From: Inhella inkyongensis
GTDB taxonomy: Bacteria > Pseudomonadota > Gammaproteobacteria > Burkholderiales > Burkholderiaceae_C
Length of the DNA: 64,000 nt
Reading direction: 5' to 3'
Assembly: GCF_005952805.1 (NCBI RefSeq)
Contig: NZ_CP040709.1
Location: 3,658,001-3,722,000, forward strand
The translations under genes and the position numbers were made by a program. The notes beneath the pieces were generated by a model. The model saw only the letters and a list, made by a program, of their open reading frames with translations, was not told the DNA's origin and did not search any database. Positions 41,086 to 49,787 of this stretch are shown one piece after another; positions within the stretch are counted from its first letter, which is position 1, and the number at the start of each line of letters is the position of its first letter.

Positions 41086-41874
41086 TCAACCCGGCCCGGC
41101 TGGTTCCTCACCGGCCGGCGCGGTCAGCACCTCAAATCCGTCAGCCGTCACCGCCACCATGTGCTCCCACTGCGCCGACAGCGAGCGGTCCGCCGTCACC
41201 ACCGTCCAGCCATCAGCCAGTTCGCGTACCTTGCGGCCGCCGGCGTTCAGCATGGGCTCGATGGTGAAGAGCATGCCCGGCTGCAGGCGCACGCCCTGAC
41301 CGGGCTGGCCGTAGCTGGCGACGAAGAGGGCATCGTGGTAGATCTGCCCGATGCCATGGCCGCCGTATTCGTGCACCACCTGACAGCCGGCCTGCTGCGC
41401 CGCGCGCTGGATGGCATGGCCCACATCGCCCAGGGTGGCGCCGGGCCGCACCTGGCGGATGCCGGCCCACATGGCCTCAAAGGCGGCATCCACCACACGC
41501 TGCGCCTTTGGGCTCACGCTGCCGACGCAGAACATGCGGCTGGTGTCGCCGAACCAGCCCTCATGCACCACGGCCACGTCGAGGTTGACGATGTCACCGT
41601 CCTTCAGCACCGCTTTGGGCGACGGGATGCCGTGGCAGACCACCTCGTTGATGGAGGTGCACAGGGTCTTCGGATAGCCGTGATAGCCGACATTGGCCGG
41701 CACGCAGCGCAGCTCGTGGACGATGAAGTCGTGGCAGCGCTGGTCCAGCTCTTCCGTGCTGACGCCAGCGCGCACATGGGGCGTGATCATGTCCAGCACG
41801 GCCGCAGCGCGCTGAGCGGCTGCGCGGGCGCGAGCGATCTCGTCGGCCGTGTGCAGGCGAGGTGACTTGCTCAT
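41086..41874 (-). CDS. map: Type I methionine aminopeptidase
   Basis: A 262-residue MetAP. Metal ligands are visible: Asp in DIVNLDVAVVHEGWFGDTSRMF, His in EYGGHGIGQIYHDA, Glu in TIEPMLN and the C-terminal Glu in AQWEHMVAV; the early catalytic His is in CHGIPS. It removes the initiator Met from nascent proteins. The start overlaps the stop of a ParD-like gene as ATGA, so the two are translationally coupled. Because map usually sits near ribosomal genes, this copy may be a second one. Confidence 0.94.
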   Translation of the reverse strand: MSKSPRLHTADEIARARAAAQRAAAVLDMITPHVRAGVSTEELDQRCHDFIVHELRCVPANVGYHGYPKTLCTSINEVVCHGIPSPKAVLKDGDIVNLDVAVVHEGWFGDTSRMFCVGSVSPKAQRVVDAAFEAMWAGIRQVRPGATLGDVGHAIQRAAQQAGCQVVHEYGGHGIGQIYHDALFVASYGQPGQGVRLQPGMLFTIEPMLNAGGRKVRELADGWTVVTADRSLSAQWEHMVAVTADGFEVLTAPAGEEPAGPG

Positions 41875-42143
41875 GTGGGCCGCCGCGGGGGTTTGGCGCT
41901 GGACGGCGCAGCGCCGGAATCGACCCATGGCCCCGCCACCCATTGCGCCAAATCCAAGCCGCCTTGCAGTTCGGCCCGCACCAGCATTTGGCAGAGCTGG
42001 GCGTGGGGCAACTCGGGATGAAGCTCGGCCAGCATGCCGATGCGCATCCAGTGCTCGGCCTGCGCGTTGATGGAACGCGAGAGCGCCGCGCTGGCAATGC
42101 GCAGGTTCTCGTGCATGGGGTCTGAGAGTTTGATGATGCCCAT
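41871..42143 (-). CDS. ParD-like antitoxin family protein
   Basis: A 90-residue protein. The N-terminus MGIIKLSDPMHENLRIASAALSRSINAQAEHWMRIGMLAELHP is the ParD-like ribbon-helix-helix family signature; the C-terminus is longer and Pro-rich (PSSAKPPRRPT). Such proteins are linked to map genes but no toxin is encoded here, so a role as transcriptional repressor of the map operon is more likely. It is immediately upstream of map with a 4-bp overlap. The promoter has three AT-rich boxes. Confidence 0.85.
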   Translation of the reverse strand: MGIIKLSDPMHENLRIASAALSRSINAQAEHWMRIGMLAELHPELPHAQLCQMLVRAELQGGLDLAQWVAGPWVDSGAAPSSAKPPRRPT

Positions 42144-42284: not shown

Positions 42285-42935
42285 ATGGGGCAATCACGGG
42301 TGAGGCCGCCGGGCGGTCTGGCACCGGGCGCCTCGGCCCTGCAGGGCTTGCTGGCGCGCTGGGGCTTGAAGCCGGGTGCGGCCAGTGCAATGGGCATTGC
42401 AGAGCGCCTGGCGGCTTGGATGGATTGGCGCGACGCGATTGCGCTGGCCCAGGCCCTCCAGCCCGGCGCGGCGCAACCCACCCTGCTCCGCTGGGATGGG
42501 GCCGCCGCGCTGGAGCGCTTGCAGCGCGAGCTGCACCTGAGCTTTGCCGACCGCGCCTTGGTACACGACGCGGCGGATCCGGCCTCCTACCGCCTGCACC
42601 ACGCCAACCAGCAGCGCCTGATGGCCGCGCGCATCGCACCGCTGCGCGAACGCCTGCGCCAGCAGCTGCAGGGCTTCGGCCCGCAAGCCGCGCAGCTCGC
42701 CGCGCTGGACGCCGTGTTCGAGCAGGCCTTTGCCGCGCGCGAGCAGCAAGCCCTGGCCGCCCTGCCTTCGATGCTGGCACGCCGTGCCGCGCTCTTGCGC
42801 GCGCAAGAGATCGACTGGCAAACGCCGCTGTGGACCGAACTGCAGCAGGCCCTGAACGCCGAACTGGAATTGAGATTGCAAGCGCTGTGGGGCCTCTTGG
42901 AGGCCCTGCAAGCGCATTCGAAAGACGCCCCATGA
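42285..42935 (+). CDS. DUF3348 family protein
   Basis: A 216-residue, helix-rich soluble protein with no signal peptide. I recognise it as DUF3348 by PPGGLAPGASALQGLLARWG-like opening, ERLAAWMDWRDAIALAQAL and the Arg-rich HHANQQRLMAARIAPLRERLRQQL region. It is the first gene of a four-gene cassette with a channel-like DUF802 protein, an OmpA/MotB-like protein and a DUF2894 protein. It overlaps the DUF802 gene by 4 bp, so equal production is likely. No activity is known for the family. Confidence 0.85.
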   Translation: MGQSRVRPPGGLAPGASALQGLLARWGLKPGAASAMGIAERLAAWMDWRDAIALAQALQPGAAQPTLLRWDGAAALERLQRELHLSFADRALVHDAADPASYRLHHANQQRLMAARIAPLRERLRQQLQGFGPQAAQLAALDAVFEQAFAAREQQALAALPSMLARRAALLRAQEIDWQTPLWTELQQALNAELELRLQALWGLLEALQAHSKDAP

Positions 42936-45337
42936 ACCGACTGCTCCGCCCCCTCGCTCCCTTGGCCTTTGCCGCTGGCTTGGTGGCCATCGCCTGGGCC
43001 GGCCACAGCGCCTGGGCGCACCACCCCTTGGCCCTGCTGATGGTGGGACTGATCTCCGCCCTTTACGGTCTGGCCGCGCTGGAGCTGCGCCGCTTTGGCC
43101 AAGCCAGCGCCGAGCTGGAGGGCAGCCTGCAAAGCCTTGGTACCCCGGCGGACGAGCCCGCGCTGCAAGCCTGGCTGCAGGCGCAGCCGCAAGCAGTGCA
43201 GGCCCTGGTGCAGCAGCGCCTGGCCGGCGGCCGCGCCAACCTGGCGGGTCTGAGCCTGGCCCCGGCCCTGGCCGCTCTGCTGGTGCTGCTGGGCATGCTG
43301 GGCACCTTTGTGGGCCTGGTGCTGACGCTGGGCGGCACGGCCAACGCGCTGGGCGCCAGCGCGGACCTGAGCGCCATGCGCGCCGCCCTCACGGCACCCG
43401 TCAAGGGCCTGGGACTGGCCTTTGGCAGCTCGGTGGCCGGTGTGGCCGCCTCGGCCATGCTGGGCCTGATGGTGGCGCTGGCACGGCGTGAGCGCGCGGC
43501 CGTGCAACAGCGTCTGGAGCAGGCCCTGGCCGGCCCGCTGCGGCCCTTTAGCGCGGCCTTCCAGCGCCTGCGCAACGAGCAGGCCCAGGCCCAGGCGCAG
43601 AACCAAACCAACGCCGCGCTGGTGGGCGAGCTGCAAGCCTTTGCGCGCCAATTGAACGAGCAGCAGGTCCAGTTTCAACAGGGCTTCCGCAGCGATTGGC
43701 TGGCCGAGCAGGCGCGCTTCCATGCGCAGACGACGGAGCGCTTTGAGCAACTGGCCGGCGCCGTGCAGCGCAGCCTGCAGCAGGCCCTGCAGGACGGCAG
43801 CGAACGCGCCACCGCCACCCTGGAGCCCCTGGTGCGCGACACCCTGCAGGGCTTGAGCCGCGAAGCGCAAAACCTGCAGCGCCAGCTGGTGGACACCACC
43901 GGCACGCAGCTGCAGGCCGTGGCGCAGCGCTTCGAGGCCGGCACCGGGCAGATGAGCCAGCAATGGCAACAGGCCCTGCAGGCCCAAACCCTGGCCACCC
44001 AGACCCAGGCCGAGGCCCAGGCGCAGAGCTGGGCCCGCCACCTGGCCGAGGCCGCCACGCTGCTGCAACAAAGCGGCGAACAGACCCGCACCGGCCTGGC
44101 CCAGGCCCTGGACCAGAGCCGCCAGCTGATGGGGGAAGCGGCCAGCCAGAGCCAGGCACTGATGCAGGAGGCGGCCCAGCACAGCCGTGCGGCCCTGGTG
44201 CAGGCCGTGGAGCAGGCCCGCGAAGGCCTGAGCCAAAGCAGCACCCAGGCCACCGCGCTGATGCGCGAGGCCGCGACCCAGCTGGGCACCAGCCTGCAGG
44301 CCGGCAGCACCCAGGGCCAGGCCCTGCTGGAACACAGCGCACGCGCGGCCGCCACCCTGCTGCAGGACAGCAGCCAGCAGGTCGCCACCCAACTGGCCGC
44401 CCAGCAGGCCCAGGCCCAGGCCGCCCTGCAAGAGACCCTGGCCGCCACCCAGCAGGCCCTCCAGGCCATGCAAGCGCAGGCCCAGGCCGATCAACAGGCC
44501 CTGCGCAGCACCCTGGCCGAACAGGCCGCCGGCCTGCTGCAACAACTGGCCCAATCCCAGGCGGCCCAGCACGAGGTCACGGCGCGCACGGAGGCCCAAC
44601 GCTTCGCCGCCCTGCAAAGCGAATGGGCCGCCACCGGCAGCCGCCAACTGGCCGAGCAGCAGCGCCTGGCCGATGCCCTGGCCCACACGGCCCGCGAATT
44701 GGTGGCCCAGGCCGAGGCGCAATCGCGCCAGACCCTGGCCGAGGTGCAGACCCTGTTGCAGGCCGCCGCAGAAACCCCGCGGGCCGCCGCCGAAATGGCC
44801 GCCGCGCTGCGCCAGCAGCTCAGCCACAGCCTGGCGCAGGACAACGCCCTGCTGGCCGAACGCAACGAGCAAGCGCAGCGCCTGCAAGCCCTATTGAACG
44901 GCGCCGAGCAAGCCGCCAACCGCCAAGGCCAAGCCATCCAGGCCCTGCAGACCCAGGCCGCCGAGCAGCTGAACCAGGCCGGCGCGCAGTTCGGGCAGCA
45001 AGTGCAGGAACTGGCCACGCGCCTGAGCGAGCAGTTGCAAGCCAGCGGCGCGCAGTTGTCCGAGGCCGCCCTGCACCTGGCCGCCAGCAGCGCCGAGATG
45101 GGCAGCCTGGGCGAGGGCTTTGGTGCGGCGGTCGCGTCCTTCCAGCACAGCAACCAGGGCCTGCAGCAGCAGCTGGCGCAGATCCAGACCGCACTGGCCC
45201 ATAGCGGCGCGCGCAGCGAGGAGCAACTGGCCTACACCGTGGCCCAGGCGCGCGAGCTGATCGACCTCTGCCTGCTGGCACAAAAGCAGGCCGTGGATGC
45301 GCTGCGCCTGAGCCAAGCGGAGCCCGCCCATGGATGA
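42932..45337 (+). CDS. DUF802 protein: MotA/ExbB-like channel with ~600-residue coiled tail
   Basis: An 801-residue membrane protein. Helices lie at about 8-25, 32-50, 110-134 and 162-184. The last two (LAALLVLLGMLGTFVGLVLTLGG and VKGLGLAFGSSVAGVAASAMLGLMVALA) resemble the MotA/TolQ/ExbB channel pair, including GTFVGL and the small-residue GLAFGSS run. Residues 190-801 are a Gln/Ala-rich predicted coiled coil with many Q-A-Q repeats. This layout matches ZorA-like stators with a long intracellular tail. It is followed at once by a MotB/OmpA-type gene (8-bp overlap). Function unknown; the motor idea is inference from shape. Confidence 0.82.
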   Translation: MNRLLRPLAPLAFAAGLVAIAWAGHSAWAHHPLALLMVGLISALYGLAALELRRFGQASAELEGSLQSLGTPADEPALQAWLQAQPQAVQALVQQRLAGGRANLAGLSLAPALAALLVLLGMLGTFVGLVLTLGGTANALGASADLSAMRAALTAPVKGLGLAFGSSVAGVAASAMLGLMVALARRERAAVQQRLEQALAGPLRPFSAAFQRLRNEQAQAQAQNQTNAALVGELQAFARQLNEQQVQFQQGFRSDWLAEQARFHAQTTERFEQLAGAVQRSLQQALQDGSERATATLEPLVRDTLQGLSREAQNLQRQLVDTTGTQLQAVAQRFEAGTGQMSQQWQQALQAQTLATQTQAEAQAQSWARHLAEAATLLQQSGEQTRTGLAQALDQSRQLMGEAASQSQALMQEAAQHSRAALVQAVEQAREGLSQSSTQATALMREAATQLGTSLQAGSTQGQALLEHSARAAATLLQDSSQQVATQLAAQQAQAQAALQETLAATQQALQAMQAQAQADQQALRSTLAEQAAGLLQQLAQSQAAQHEVTARTEAQRFAALQSEWAATGSRQLAEQQRLADALAHTARELVAQAEAQSRQTLAEVQTLLQAAAETPRAAAEMAAALRQQLSHSLAQDNALLAERNEQAQRLQALLNGAEQAANRQGQAIQALQTQAAEQLNQAGAQFGQQVQELATRLSEQLQASGAQLSEAALHLAASSAEMGSLGEGFGAAVASFQHSNQGLQQQLAQIQTALAHSGARSEEQLAYTVAQARELIDLCLLAQKQAVDALRLSQAEPAHG

Positions 45338-45989
45338 GGTCGAGCTGGAGGAACAAGGACTGCTGGATGAGGCCCATGCCGGCGCCTCGGTCTGGGCCGC
45401 CTTTGGCGACCTGATGAGCGGGGTGCTGGGCGCCTTTGTGCTGATCCTGGCCGTGGCCCTGGTCAGCCAGCTGGACCTGGCCGAGAAGCTGCGCCAGGAG
45501 GTGGAACAGCGCGCCCAGGAAACCCAGCGCCGCGAAGCCCTGGAGCGCGCGCTCGCCGGGCCTCTTGCACAAAACATCGCCGCCGGCCGCGTGACCCTGA
45601 ACGAGGGCCGCATCGGCATCAGCGGCCAGGTGCTGTTCGCCCCCGGTTCAGACGCCCTGCACGCCGACGGCCGCGCCCTGCTGCAGAGCCTGGCCGAGCC
45701 CCTGCGCGCCTATCTGGCTGCGCGCGATGAGGTGCTGATGGTCAGCGGCTTCACCGACGACCGCCCGGTGCGTGGCGGCAACCGCGAGTTCCAGGACAAC
45801 TGGGAGCTCTCGGCCCTGCGGGCACTGACCGTGACGCGAGCGTTGATCCAGGACGGATTGCCTTCCAGCGCTGTGTTCGCCGCTGCCTTCGGGCCCGAGC
45901 AGCCGGTGGCCTCGAACGAGGCCGCCGAAGGCCGTGCGCTGAACCGCCGCGTGGAGCTCGCCCCCACGCCCCGGCGCAAGGCGCCCTGA
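45330..45989 (+). CDS. OmpA/MotB-like protein, partner of the DUF802 channel
   Basis: A 219-residue protein with an acidic start, one membrane helix (residues ~23-46, AAFGDLMSGVLGAFVLILAVALV) carrying Asp27 at its start as in MotB/ZorB/ExbD, a coiled linker (LAEKLRQEVEQRAQETQRRE), and an OmpA peptidoglycan-binding domain. That domain shows LFAPGSDALHADGRALL, VSGFTDDRPV, NWELSALRALTVTRAL and NRRVEL. This is what a proton-powered stator's peptidoglycan anchor looks like. It sits between the DUF802 and DUF2894 genes. Confidence 0.88.
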   Translation: MDEVELEEQGLLDEAHAGASVWAAFGDLMSGVLGAFVLILAVALVSQLDLAEKLRQEVEQRAQETQRREALERALAGPLAQNIAAGRVTLNEGRIGISGQVLFAPGSDALHADGRALLQSLAEPLRAYLAARDEVLMVSGFTDDRPVRGGNREFQDNWELSALRALTVTRALIQDGLPSSAVFAAAFGPEQPVASNEAAEGRALNRRVELAPTPRRKAP

Positions 45990-45996
45990 GCGACGC

Positions 45997-46575
45997 ATGG
46001 ATGAACTGCTGCACGTCGACCCGCTGGCCTGGTTGCTGAACCAGCCGGCCGCCGCATGCGGCGACCCCTTGCGCCAACAGACCCTGCAGGGCCTGGCCCG
46101 GCGCGCCGCGGCCTTGCCAGAAGGACCGCTACGCCGGCGCCTGTGTGAACGCTTGCTGGAGCGTCTGCAGGCGCCGCACAGTCCGCCCCCGGCGCAGGCC
46201 GTGGCCACCGCCCCCACCGAACACCCGCTGCGCGATTGGATGGCCGCGCTGCAGGCCCGCGCCGGCGGCCCCGGCGAGGACCTGCGCAGCCTGCAGCAGA
46301 ACCGCCGCAGCTTCGGCCGCCTGCGCCTGGCCCAGCGTCTGGCTCAAGCCCCGGCAAGCCCGGCAGCACCCACCCAGTCCCTCGGCCCGCTCAACACCCT
46401 GGCCCTGGTGCCCAAGGCCCTGGCCCTGCTGCAACAGACCTCGCCCGATTACCTGGAGCGCTTGGTGGGCTATCTGGACGCGCTGGCGGTGCTGGCGCCG
46501 GAGAGCGCCGCGCCCTTGGACAGCAGCAAGCCCGGCAAATCCAGCAAGCCGACCAAACGGCGCAGCAAGCCTTAA
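45997..46575 (+). CDS. DUF2894 family protein
   Basis: A 192-residue soluble protein. The central NRRSFGRLRLAQRLAQAP and LGPLNTLALVPKALALLQQTSPDYLERLVGYLDAL are the DUF2894 signature. The C-terminus is Lys/Ser-rich (SKPGKSSKPTKRRSKP), suggesting contact with nucleic acid or acidic protein. It ends the four-gene cassette, 7 bp after the OmpA-like gene and 22 bp before dinG. No function is known. Confidence 0.85.
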   Translation: MDELLHVDPLAWLLNQPAAACGDPLRQQTLQGLARRAAALPEGPLRRRLCERLLERLQAPHSPPPAQAVATAPTEHPLRDWMAALQARAGGPGEDLRSLQQNRRSFGRLRLAQRLAQAPASPAAPTQSLGPLNTLALVPKALALLQQTSPDYLERLVGYLDALAVLAPESAAPLDSSKPGKSSKPTKRRSKP

Positions 46576-46597: not shown

Positions 46598-48760
46598 ATG
46601 ACCCTGCCCGCCTCTGACGCTCACGCCGAGCTGCACGACCAGCTCGAAGCCCTCTACCAGGCCCTGCTGGAGTCCAGCCCGGGCTCGGTGGCGCGTGCCG
46701 GTCAGCGCGAGATGCTGCACGCCATCGCCGCCCAGCTGGCCGATGCGCGCTTCGAGCCCGATGGCGGCGCGCGCGTCTGCGTGGTGGAGGCCGGCACCGG
46801 CGTGGGCAAGACGCGCGCCTATCTGGCCGCCGCCATCACCCTGGCGCGCCGCGCCGGCGTGAAGGTGGTGGTCAGCACCTCCACCATCGCACTGCAAGAG
46901 CAGGTGATGGGCAAGGACCTGCCCGAACTGAGCGAAGCCATGGAGGTGCCGCCGGTGGTGGCCCTGCTCAAGGGGCGCGGGCGCTATCTGTGCCCGGTCA
47001 AGCTGGAGACGGCCTGCAATGGCGAGCAGACCCCGATGACCCTGGACGATGGCAGCGCCGTGCAGACGCCGCCGCTGGAGCGCTTCATTGCGCTCAAGAA
47101 GCGCTGGGATGGCGGCACTTGGGGCGGCGACCGCGACAGCCTGGGCCCCGAGGATCTGCAGCTCTGGGGCCATCTGGCCGCCGACCGCCACGCCTGCACC
47201 AGCCGGCATTGCCCACAGTTCCACCACTGCCCTTACTTCGATGCCAAGCGCGCCGCCAGCAAGGCGGACATCCTGGTGGCCAACCACGACCTGGTGCTGG
47301 CCAGCCTGCGCTCGGACGCCTCGGCCCTGCCGCATGGCGAGCGTGCGATCTACATCTTTGACGAGGGCCACCACCTGCCGGCCACCGCGCTCTCGCACTT
47401 CGACTGCGAGGCCAGCCTGACCGACCGCCGCTGGCTGCAGCGCCTGGACAAGGCCCTGGACCAGGCCGGCCGGGTGCTGCGCTACCCGCTGAATCTGGAG
47501 GGCTGCACCTCGCTCCTGAACCAGGCGCTGGACGATTTGCTGCGCGGCGTGATGCAGGGCGTGGGCAACGAGGCCCTGGGCCATCTGCACGAAGCCGCTG
47601 AGGCCAATCAGGCGGGGCAGAACCCCAGCACCCGCATCCGCTTCCCGCACGGCCTGCTGCCCGAGGAGCTACCGCCGCTGTGGCAGGCGATGCGCGAGCA
47701 GGCCCAGCGCCTGCACGACCGTGCCAGCGAATTCAGCGCCTGGATGAAGGAAGCGCGGCAGGACGACGAAACCCTGGCGCCCTTGATTGCCCAGCAGGTC
47801 AGCGAGATCGGCGGCCCCTTCAAGCGCCTCACCGACCTCTTGGAGACCGCTTCGCTGATGCTTGAAGACAGCGAACCGCCCGCCGCCAAATGGCTGGACT
47901 TCACGGTGGCCGGCGGCGGCATGAACGCCGGTTCGCTACGCGTGGTGGCCCATGCCTGCCCGCTGTTCGCCAGCGGCGTGCTGCGCCGCCATCTGTGGCC
48001 GCGCATGAGCGCGGTGGTCATCACCTCGGCCACGCTCAAGGCGCTGGGCAAGTTCGACTATTTCCTGAAGGACAGCGGCCTGGCCGGTGTGGACGGGGTA
48101 AGAGCCCTGGAAGTGGAGAGCCCCTTCGACTACGCGCGCCAAGGCCAGTTCACCGTGGTGCAAACCAAGGCCAGCCCCAAGGCCGCCACCGAACACACGG
48201 CCGAGGTGGCGCGCCTGTTGCAAAAGGACCTGCTGCAGGTCGAGCACGGCGGCCTGGTGCTGTGCTCCAGCTGGGTGCAGCTGCGCGCCATCACGGCGGC
48301 CCTACCGGCCAGCCTGCTGCGCCAATGCCGGGTGCAGGGTGAACTGGCGCGCGAGACCCTGCTGCGCGAACACCGCGCCGCCGTCGATCGCGGCGAGCGC
48401 AGCATCCTGATCGGCCTGCAAAGCTTTGGCGAGGGCCTGGACCTGCCGGGCCGCCAGTGCGAATGGGTTTTCATGCCCAAACTGCCCTTCATGACCCCCG
48501 ACGACCCGGTGCAGGAAGCGCGCGCCGAATGGCTGGACGGCAAGGGGCGCAGCAGCTTCACCGAACTGGTGGTGCCCGCCACCGGCGTGCGCCTGAACCA
48601 ATGGACCGGCCGCGGCATCCGCAGCGAGACCGACCACGCCCACATCGTCTGCTACGACCCACGATTGGCGATGACGCCGTTTGGCAAGCAGCTGCTGGCG
48701 GGGCTGCCGGGCTTTGCCAAGCGGCTGCGGCGGCTGGACGGCAGCGAGGCCAATTTGTAG
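46598..48760 (+). CDS. dinG: ATP-dependent DNA helicase DinG
   Basis: A 720-residue XPD/DinG-type SF2 helicase. Walker A is VEAGTGVGKTRAYL, motif Ia is VVVSTSTIALQEQVM, and DEAH is seen as YIFDEGHHLPATALSHF. The four Fe-S Cys are in YLCPVKLETAC and HACTSRHCPQFHHCPYF. The C-terminal motif VI is NQWTGRGIRSETD (a Q..GR.IR variant). DinG unwinds DNA and R-loops. ATG 46598 begins 22 bp after the DUF2894 stop with no terminator, so it may share a transcript with the cassette. Confidence 0.93.
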   Translation: MTLPASDAHAELHDQLEALYQALLESSPGSVARAGQREMLHAIAAQLADARFEPDGGARVCVVEAGTGVGKTRAYLAAAITLARRAGVKVVVSTSTIALQEQVMGKDLPELSEAMEVPPVVALLKGRGRYLCPVKLETACNGEQTPMTLDDGSAVQTPPLERFIALKKRWDGGTWGGDRDSLGPEDLQLWGHLAADRHACTSRHCPQFHHCPYFDAKRAASKADILVANHDLVLASLRSDASALPHGERAIYIFDEGHHLPATALSHFDCEASLTDRRWLQRLDKALDQAGRVLRYPLNLEGCTSLLNQALDDLLRGVMQGVGNEALGHLHEAAEANQAGQNPSTRIRFPHGLLPEELPPLWQAMREQAQRLHDRASEFSAWMKEARQDDETLAPLIAQQVSEIGGPFKRLTDLLETASLMLEDSEPPAAKWLDFTVAGGGMNAGSLRVVAHACPLFASGVLRRHLWPRMSAVVITSATLKALGKFDYFLKDSGLAGVDGVRALEVESPFDYARQGQFTVVQTKASPKAATEHTAEVARLLQKDLLQVEHGGLVLCSSWVQLRAITAALPASLLRQCRVQGELARETLLREHRAAVDRGERSILIGLQSFGEGLDLPGRQCEWVFMPKLPFMTPDDPVQEARAEWLDGKGRSSFTELVVPATGVRLNQWTGRGIRSETDHAHIVCYDPRLAMTPFGKQLLAGLPGFAKRLRRLDGSEANL

Positions 48761-48762
48761 TC

Positions 48763-48791
48763 TTGCAGTAAGCTCAAGCCATTGTTTTAAT
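48763..48791 (+). promoter_or_regulatory. Possible promoter in an AT-rich patch before the nucleotidyltransferase
   Basis: TTGCAG (48763-48768) and TTTAAT (48786-48791) with a 17-base spacer are weak sigma-70-like boxes; the 58-base gap is much richer in A+T than the rest of the window. A start here is reasonable since dinG has just stopped. Confidence 0.45.
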
Positions 48792-48818
48792 TATTGTTTC
48801 GGTACTTTTTCAAAAATC

Positions 48819-49787
48819 ATGAAAGAGACCGAACTCGAAGAACTCTCGCCTGCAGCCACACGCCAAGCCATTGATGCTGGCAAGGTGTTTGCGGCGCTGG
48901 AGGCGGCCCGCGCCGAGGCGGCGCAGGTGCGTGGCGGCATGTACTGGCACAAGGGATCCAAGGCCCGGCCGGACACGCCCTACTTGGTTCGCACCACCCC
49001 GGCTGGCGGCGAAACCAGCCTGGGCCTGGAGAGCGAGGAAACTCGCCTCATCTATGAGCGTTTCATGACGCGCAAGGCAGCGGCTGAGGCGCGGCTGCGG
49101 CAACTGCGCGAGGCCATGGAGCAGCATCGACGCATGAACCGTGCGCTCCGCATCGGCCATTGCGAGCCGCTGGTGGTGAAGCTCTTGAATCAATTGGCCC
49201 AGGCCGATTTAAGCGATCACTTCCGCGTGGTGAGCACCCACGCGCTCTATGCGTATGGGGCCGAAGCGGGCGTTCATCTGCAAGCTGGCGCCTTGGCCAC
49301 GCGCGATATCGATTTGCTCTGGGATGTGCAGCAGAGGCTGCGCTTTGCCACACAGTTGGCGCGCGTCGATCGTTCGATGCTGGGCCTGCTGCGCAAGGTC
49401 GATCCCAGCTTCAGGCTGCGCGACGATCAGCGCTACACCGCCGTCAACCAAGACGGCTTTGAAGTGGACATCCTGCGCCGCGAGCAAGCAGAGACGGACC
49501 CGCACCCCATCAAACTCAGCGAGGCTGACGAGGACTTCTGGGTGGTCCAGGCCCGCCACGCCCAACAGTTGCTGGATGCGCCGCCCTTCTCAGCCCTGAT
49601 CGTGGCCACCGACGGCACGATGGCGCGCATGCACACCCTGCATCCGCTCTCGTTCGTCCGCTTCAAGCGCTGGATGGCCGAACAGACGGACCGCGAGGCA
49701 CCGCGCCGACGTCGTGATCTGCTGCAAGCCGAGGTGGTCGAAGGCCTGGTGCGCGACTATCTGCCGCAGTGGGCCGAAGCCCGGTAG
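48819..49787 (+). CDS. GSU2403-type nucleotidyltransferase-fold protein
   Basis: A 322-residue protein of the NTP_transf_8/GSU2403 family. The N-terminal ~110 residues are helical (RLIYERFMTRKAAAEARLRQLREAM). Then comes the nucleotidyltransferase fold with STHALYAYGAEAGVHLQAGALATRDIDLLWDV, where DxD can bind metal, and the substrate region ALIVATDGTMARMHTLHPLSFVRFKRWMAEQ. These proteins are often found alone and resemble MNT/AbiEii-type toxins in fold. ATG 48819 is preceded by an AT-rich leader. The end abuts the duplicated GNAT fragment. Function unknown. Confidence 0.78.
   Translation: MKETELEELSPAATRQAIDAGKVFAALEAARAEAAQVRGGMYWHKGSKARPDTPYLVRTTPAGGETSLGLESEETRLIYERFMTRKAAAEARLRQLREAMEQHRRMNRALRIGHCEPLVVKLLNQLAQADLSDHFRVVSTHALYAYGAEAGVHLQAGALATRDIDLLWDVQQRLRFATQLARVDRSMLGLLRKVDPSFRLRDDQRYTAVNQDGFEVDILRREQAETDPHPIKLSEADEDFWVVQARHAQQLLDAPPFSALIVATDGTMARMHTLHPLSFVRFKRWMAEQTDREAPRRRRDLLQAEVVEGLVRDYLPQWAEAR

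Follow-up and report, generated by a model that had tools for sequence, protein, structure and literature searches.

At positions 42285-46575 of the 64,000-nucleotide stretch of the Inhella inkyongensis genome analysed here (NZ_CP040709.1, positions 3,658,001 to 3,722,000; hereafter the window) lies a cassette of four genes, all on the + strand. They encode, in order, a DUF3348 protein, a MotA/ExbB-like protein (ZorA), a MotB/OmpA protein (ZorB) and a DUF2894 protein. The genome is a single contig of 4.08 Mb with a G+C content of ~69%. Successive genes are joined by a 4-bp overlap, an 8-bp overlap (ZorA/ZorB) and a 7-bp gap, so that the coupled four-gene unit drawn in the initial annotation of this DNA, made from the sequence alone, stands with all its coordinates. 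The features are as follows.

42285-42935, + strand: DUF3348 protein, 216 residues, predicted all-helical (Pfam PF11828, E = 3.4e-28; PADLOC PDLC00658, E = 9e-40).
42932-45337, + strand: ZorA3, MotA/ExbB/TolQ-like stator subunit with a long cytoplasmic tail, 801 residues (PADLOC PDLC00647, E = 3.7e-168, residues 9-794).
43562-45334, + strand: ZorA tail, residues 211-801, Ala/Gln-rich with hendecad-like periodicity (composition and periodicity analysis).
45330-45989, + strand: ZorB3, MotB-like, 219 residues, with a single hydrophobic stretch and a peptidoglycan-binding OmpA domain (PADLOC PDLC00651, E = 5.9e-97; Pfam OmpA, E = 1.3e-16).
45408-45410, + strand: codon for Asp27 of ZorB, which presumably binds the ion (invariant in 31/31 aligned ZorB3 sequences).
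45997-46575, + strand: DUF2894 protein, 192 residues (Pfam PF11445, E = 3.9e-15; PADLOC PDLC00652, E = 9.8e-23).
46498-46572, + strand: the last 25 residues of the DUF2894 protein, a basic C-terminal tail with net charge +5 (charge count).

The cassette is almost certainly a complete Zorya type III anti-phage system, a class that has already been named. Type III models from PADLOC-DB match all four proteins at the E values listed above, under the labels ZorG3 (DUF3348), ZorA3, ZorB3 and ZorF3 (DUF2894). The ZorA3 and ZorB3 genes are adjacent, and the genes flanking the pair encode DUF3348 and DUF2894 proteins, each above cut-off in both Pfam and PADLOC. ZorB is additionally assigned to NCBIfam PRK09040.1 (314.6 bits against a cut-off of 194). 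Type III was described in 2021 from 6,401 gene pairs (printed as zorBC) with DUF3348 and DUF2894 genes flanking them, and a cloned system from Stenotrophomonas nitritireducens, four genes on a plasmid, gave significantly fewer plaques of at least one phage in Escherichia coli (PMC8565338; this and the other papers are cited from the parts covered here). The same outcome was reported for the two other systems tested alongside it (PMC8565338). Elsewhere, Zorya III is mentioned in a Variovorax strain (PMC11953036), and in Burkholderia cenocepacia the initial one or two genes of Zorya III changed in expression during phage infection (PMC12584637).

Comparison with the published type III system revealed the same four genes and no structural difference. 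Two details set the window apart: its ZorA has no detectable DUF802 element, unlike some type III relatives, and its ZorB carries a four-residue insertion absent from the other 30 aligned ZorB3 sequences. The initial annotation had seen the likeness to ZorA-ZorB correctly; its further step, from the missing ZorC, ZorD and ZorE to something other than Zorya with two uncharacterised partners, was mistaken. The DUF3348 and DUF2894 proteins are the defining type III subunits ZorF and ZorG (PMC8565338). The two names conflict between sources: the 2021 paper calls DUF3348 ZorF and DUF2894 ZorG (PMC8565338), and the PADLOC-DB 2.0.0 model labels are reversed.

The four genes belong together. We surveyed 250 genomes from the same family, of which 245 fell within both quality limits, calling ZorB3 present at E<=1e-40 and the two partners present when over cut-off. 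ZorB3, DUF3348 and DUF2894 each occurred in 76 of the 250, and these were the same 76, which makes them an all-or-none set and answers the question of co-occurrence raised with the annotation. One extra genome per partner (G325 and G280) gave only a match below cut-off, and two genomes (G270 and G383) had part of the set on another contig. Across 80 named loci, all four genes are matched on one strand in 73, and six of the remaining seven are cut by contig ends; the cassette is no chance assembly. The order DUF3348-ZorA-ZorB-DUF2894 is constant in the 65 of 80 loci with all four reading frames delimited. One locus, in Paucibacter sp. TC2R-5 (L118:9460-11175), is an eroded copy in which ZorB, DUF2894 and a piece of the ZorA tail persist, while DUF3348 and the channel domain of ZorA have been lost.

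The stator pair retains the residues expected of an ion channel. ZorB Asp27 lies in the motif WAAFGDLM at the start of the protein's sole hydrophobic stretch, ahead of the OmpA domain, as originally proposed, and its retention in every aligned homologue bears out the conservation on which that proposal had been staked. In ZorA, Thr125 and Ser167 are invariant in 30/30 aligned sequences. A profile of the ZorA3 N terminus searched against the PDB at E<=0.01 found only 8vvn_C, a type I ZorA (E = 2.3e-6), aligned over the Thr/Ser channel motif; the single ZorA sequence, searched in place of the profile, found no PDB match. Judged from these alignments, the pair appears to have the Zorya hallmark of a ZorB membrane Asp facing a ring of ZorA Ser/Thr residues. 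Hydropathy of ZorA revealed four hydrophobic stretches (residues 3-23, 31-53, 101-137 and 159-185), more than the MotA/ExbB-like helix pair that had been described.

Past residue 210, ZorA is 22% Ala and 21% Gln, in line with the long Gln/Ala-rich tail reported earlier, and this tail spans ~590 residues. Its helical period is ~3.67 residues (power 12.2, against 7.1 at the 95th percentile of 200 shuffles). Among 73 ZorA proteins, that of the window included, the tail period peaks at 3.65-3.67 in 41 and at 3.56-3.58 in 26, and ZorA length across loci is 595-946 residues, save for one reading of 277. The DUF802 label previously given to the window protein does not hold: it has no Pfam match, neither to DUF802 (PF05650, none at E<=10) nor to MotA. 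The 53-position DUF802 model instead corresponds to an element of the ZorA3 tail in homologues, at residues 320-372 of the two tested, one matching at 59.9 bits, once in the piece scanned (L114), and the other at 119 bits, twice (L081).

Flagellar stators resemble the pair in part. ZorB matches the MotD, MotB and MotS models, all under cut-off, and PDB chains of MotB and PomB match its OmpA domain, whereas the window ZorA lacks a MotA match and has the long tail. Membership of the flagellar MotAB/MotCD family was considered and rejected, the best match being MotD at 100.2 bits against a cut-off of 283.

The cassette also resembles Zorya types I and II. Structures of the type I and type II ZorA5B2 complexes have been solved (8VVN, 8VVI; PMC11890865), and the cassette has in common with them the ZorA/ZorB ion-channel pair, the essential Asp, the OmpA domain and the long ZorA tail. 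Defence by these types needs peptidoglycan binding, ion flux and the ZorA tail, and nucleases are recruited; the discussion of that work proposes nuclease recruitment for all Zorya subtypes, and its parts covered here name type III and hold no type III experiments (PMC11890865). The models of these types match the window proteins more weakly than do those of type III (ZorB1, E = 1.9e-21; ZorA1, 2.5e-5; ZorA2, 6.8e-5). Where types I and II carry ZorC and ZorD, or ZorE, the cassette instead has DUF3348 and DUF2894. Assignment to either type fails on this point: the ZorC, ZorD and ZorE models were absent from the PADLOC matches of the four cassette proteins at E<=1, and 81 loci contained no recurring extra gene.

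We examined the two partner proteins by structure prediction and alignment. The AlphaFold2 model of DUF3348 is all-helical and of good quality (predicted local distance difference test score (pLDDT) 88.5, predicted template modelling score (pTM) 0.82); DUF2894 is predicted to be helical at lower confidence (pLDDT 78.8, pTM 0.44). Searches of solved structures with both proteins, by sequence and by fold, gave no convincing PDB match, and no cassette protein has a Pfam enzyme match. In neither partner alignment does any His, Cys or Lys column reach 70% conservation, which speaks against enzymes of the HNH, PD-(D/E)xK and Walker types but not against one of an unfamiliar fold. DUF3348 has six positions that are invariant or nearly so (Gln110, Arg121, Asp142, Glu153, Glu193 and Arg197). 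The last 25 residues of DUF2894 carry a net charge of +3 or more in 73/78 relatives, with a median isoelectric point of 9.9; the C-terminal end of DUF3348 is not basic (median net charge -2). Alignment columns average 34% and 32% identity in the partners, compared with 64% in ZorB. The parts of the literature that we searched describe no mechanism for DUF3348 or DUF2894 and no type III effector step.

ZorA3/ZorB3-like genes also occur as a pair on their own. Two genomes of another order (G421 and G550) carry such a pair (L149:1549-4062 and L150:3560-6069) among unrelated genes; the L149 pair matches ZorA3 at E = 3.6e-62 and ZorB3 at E = 2.7e-77. DUF3348 and DUF2894 were absent from both assemblies, which are 93% and 90% complete, fragmented and the sole two sampled from their order, and the same searches found both partners in four other genomes. 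Like type III ZorB, the stand-alone ZorB keeps the Asp, here in the motif IADIM; it is 49-51% identical to the window ZorB and forms a separate branch. The stand-alone pair may be the same stator before the gain or after the loss of its defence partners, either direction being compatible with the midpoint-rooted tree.

The distribution of the cassette is only partly what a defence system would lead one to expect: it is patchy and variable in place, yet not freely traded. Even samples gave strong ZorB3 matches in 6/150 genomes of the order, with a gap in E value from 2e-96 to 6e-26, in 10/370 of the class (E<=1e-40) and in 20/397 of the phylum (E<=1e-33). By listing, presence within one genus is often mixed (genera g105 and g177). 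Measured along the ZorB tree, the closest named relatives are two Inhella; by tblastn, the highest identity (75-76%) is with Inhella proteolytica and Piscinibacter. Plasmid records with a ZorB match at E<=1e-40 number 27 of 72,556, all of them replicons of at least 366 kb.

The flanks were compared with a crude open reading frame (ORF) caller and blastp clustering, without a core-gene synteny control, so that differing flanks do not by themselves demonstrate mobility. By this measure each neighbour family is confined to 9 or fewer of the 81 loci, and the idea that the genes might keep company only with housekeeping genes finds no support, since the 81 loci share no housekeeping neighbour. A family in common among the nearest three ORFs per side was found in 27/210 Variovorax pairs, in 27/1935 other pairs and in no pair involving the window. 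The ORF caller misses some sharing, because tblastn showed that the window and locus L061 have the upstream M24 peptidase and ParD-like genes in common, which the ORF comparison had not registered. Within the window's genus the setting varies: the window and one further genome (G281) carry the cassette beside the M24 peptidase/ParD-like pair, which is upstream of it in Inhella proteolytica, and two others (G168 and G359) share a different setting. In the window this pair, a map-like M24 metallopeptidase gene and a ParD_like gene, occupies 41086-42143 on the - strand, divergent from the cassette.

The analogy of types I and II suggests an ion-driven inner-membrane stator made of five ZorA and two ZorB subunits. 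A phage disturbing the envelope would allow the OmpA domain of ZorB to grip peptidoglycan and would free the passage of ions at Asp27. Movement of ZorA, with its long helical tail, would follow, and a signal would reach the cytoplasmic DUF3348 and DUF2894 proteins, which would stand in for ZorC, ZorD and ZorE. That type III runs such an envelope-sensing cycle is probable, and the conservation of the channel residues (Asp27, Thr125 and Ser167) supports this half of the proposal. The effector half is more tentative. Since four genes suffice in E. coli, no fifth gene was found to be shared and no enzyme is recognisable, the partners would work by physical action, through a host factor or as a new enzyme not yet recognised. 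They may be helical adaptors on the ZorA tail, with the basic end of DUF2894 touching DNA or else anionic membrane, and may then obstruct the entering DNA or recruit a nuclease of the host without cutting DNA themselves; that they are adaptors with no nuclease of their own seems to us a little short of an even chance. For the explanation as a whole, type III identity with a sensing stator and helical adaptors, we put the probability at roughly 0.6.

Weighing against this explanation are a distribution only partly like that of a defence system, the conserved acidic residues of DUF3348 and the possibility that the basic end of DUF2894 is compositional in a genome so rich in G+C (though the DUF3348 end is not basic). 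The strongest rival, which we regard as unlikely, gives one of the partners an enzymatic activity of its own, as a nuclease or otherwise, in an unrecognised fold, making type III a stator plus DNA-cutting effector like types I and II. The nuclease recruitment reported for those types and proposed for all favours it (PMC11890865), as do the six conserved positions of DUF3348, whose acidic residues (Asp142, Glu153 and Glu193) could belong to a metal-dependent enzyme, and the weak DUF2894 model, which means that this fold has hardly been probed. Against a hidden enzyme stand the missing His, Cys or Lys columns and the failure of Pfam and of PDB searches by sequence and fold to suggest one.

Less probable again is that the cassette is mainly a stator for envelope maintenance or envelope stress in its host lineage, with the protection seen in E. 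coli a side effect of plasmid expression. The ZorB tree mostly follows host genera (24 genus-label changes, against a minimum of 21 and a shuffled mean of 43.3), and at E<=1e-20 none of 50,697 phage records matched ZorB. A partial scan covering 80 of 251 flank proteins showed no enrichment for defence islands, so that the location in such islands considered at the outset is not supported. Type III Zorya is conserved in at least 90% of Ralstonia solanacearum genomes (PMC13064858), and the ZorAB3-like pair can occur without partners. Set against this are the confinement of the cassette to 76 of 250 family genomes, often in some members of a genus and not others, the eroded Paucibacter copy, the varied settings within the window's genus and the significant drop in plaquing in E. 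coli (PMC8565338).

Downstream of the cassette, a DinG-like helicase gene (46598-48760) begins 22 bp past its end and is followed by an NTP_transf_8 nucleotidyltransferase gene (48729-49787). That this helicase is the effector of the present copy, replacing ZorD, is suggested by its strand, the short gap and its DEAD and Helicase_C_2 domains, but is very improbable, as no relative occurs in the 80 named loci (E<=1e-20) or in 18 loci tested at E<=1e-4, and published type III works with four genes only (PMC8565338).

Types I and II are accounted for by a sensor motor that recruits a nuclease, and none of the type III proteins resembles that DNA-cutting enzyme. The all-or-none gene set and the lack of an enzyme signature sharpen the question of whether type III represents nuclease-free stator defence or a new enzyme hidden in DUF3348 or DUF2894. 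One possible answer, which we hold with more reserve than the adaptor role itself, is that type III is a defence stator without a DNA-cutting enzyme of its own, in which the moving ZorA tail is coupled by two fast-evolving helical adaptors either to DNA or to a nuclease that E. coli shares with the native hosts, and that the stand-alone pair represents this stator prior to the gain, or following the loss, of these partners. Comparison with the stand-alone pair offers a way to tell motor and defence functions apart; if this account is true, the pair shows a plain envelope stator recruited to immunity by the addition of two small proteins.

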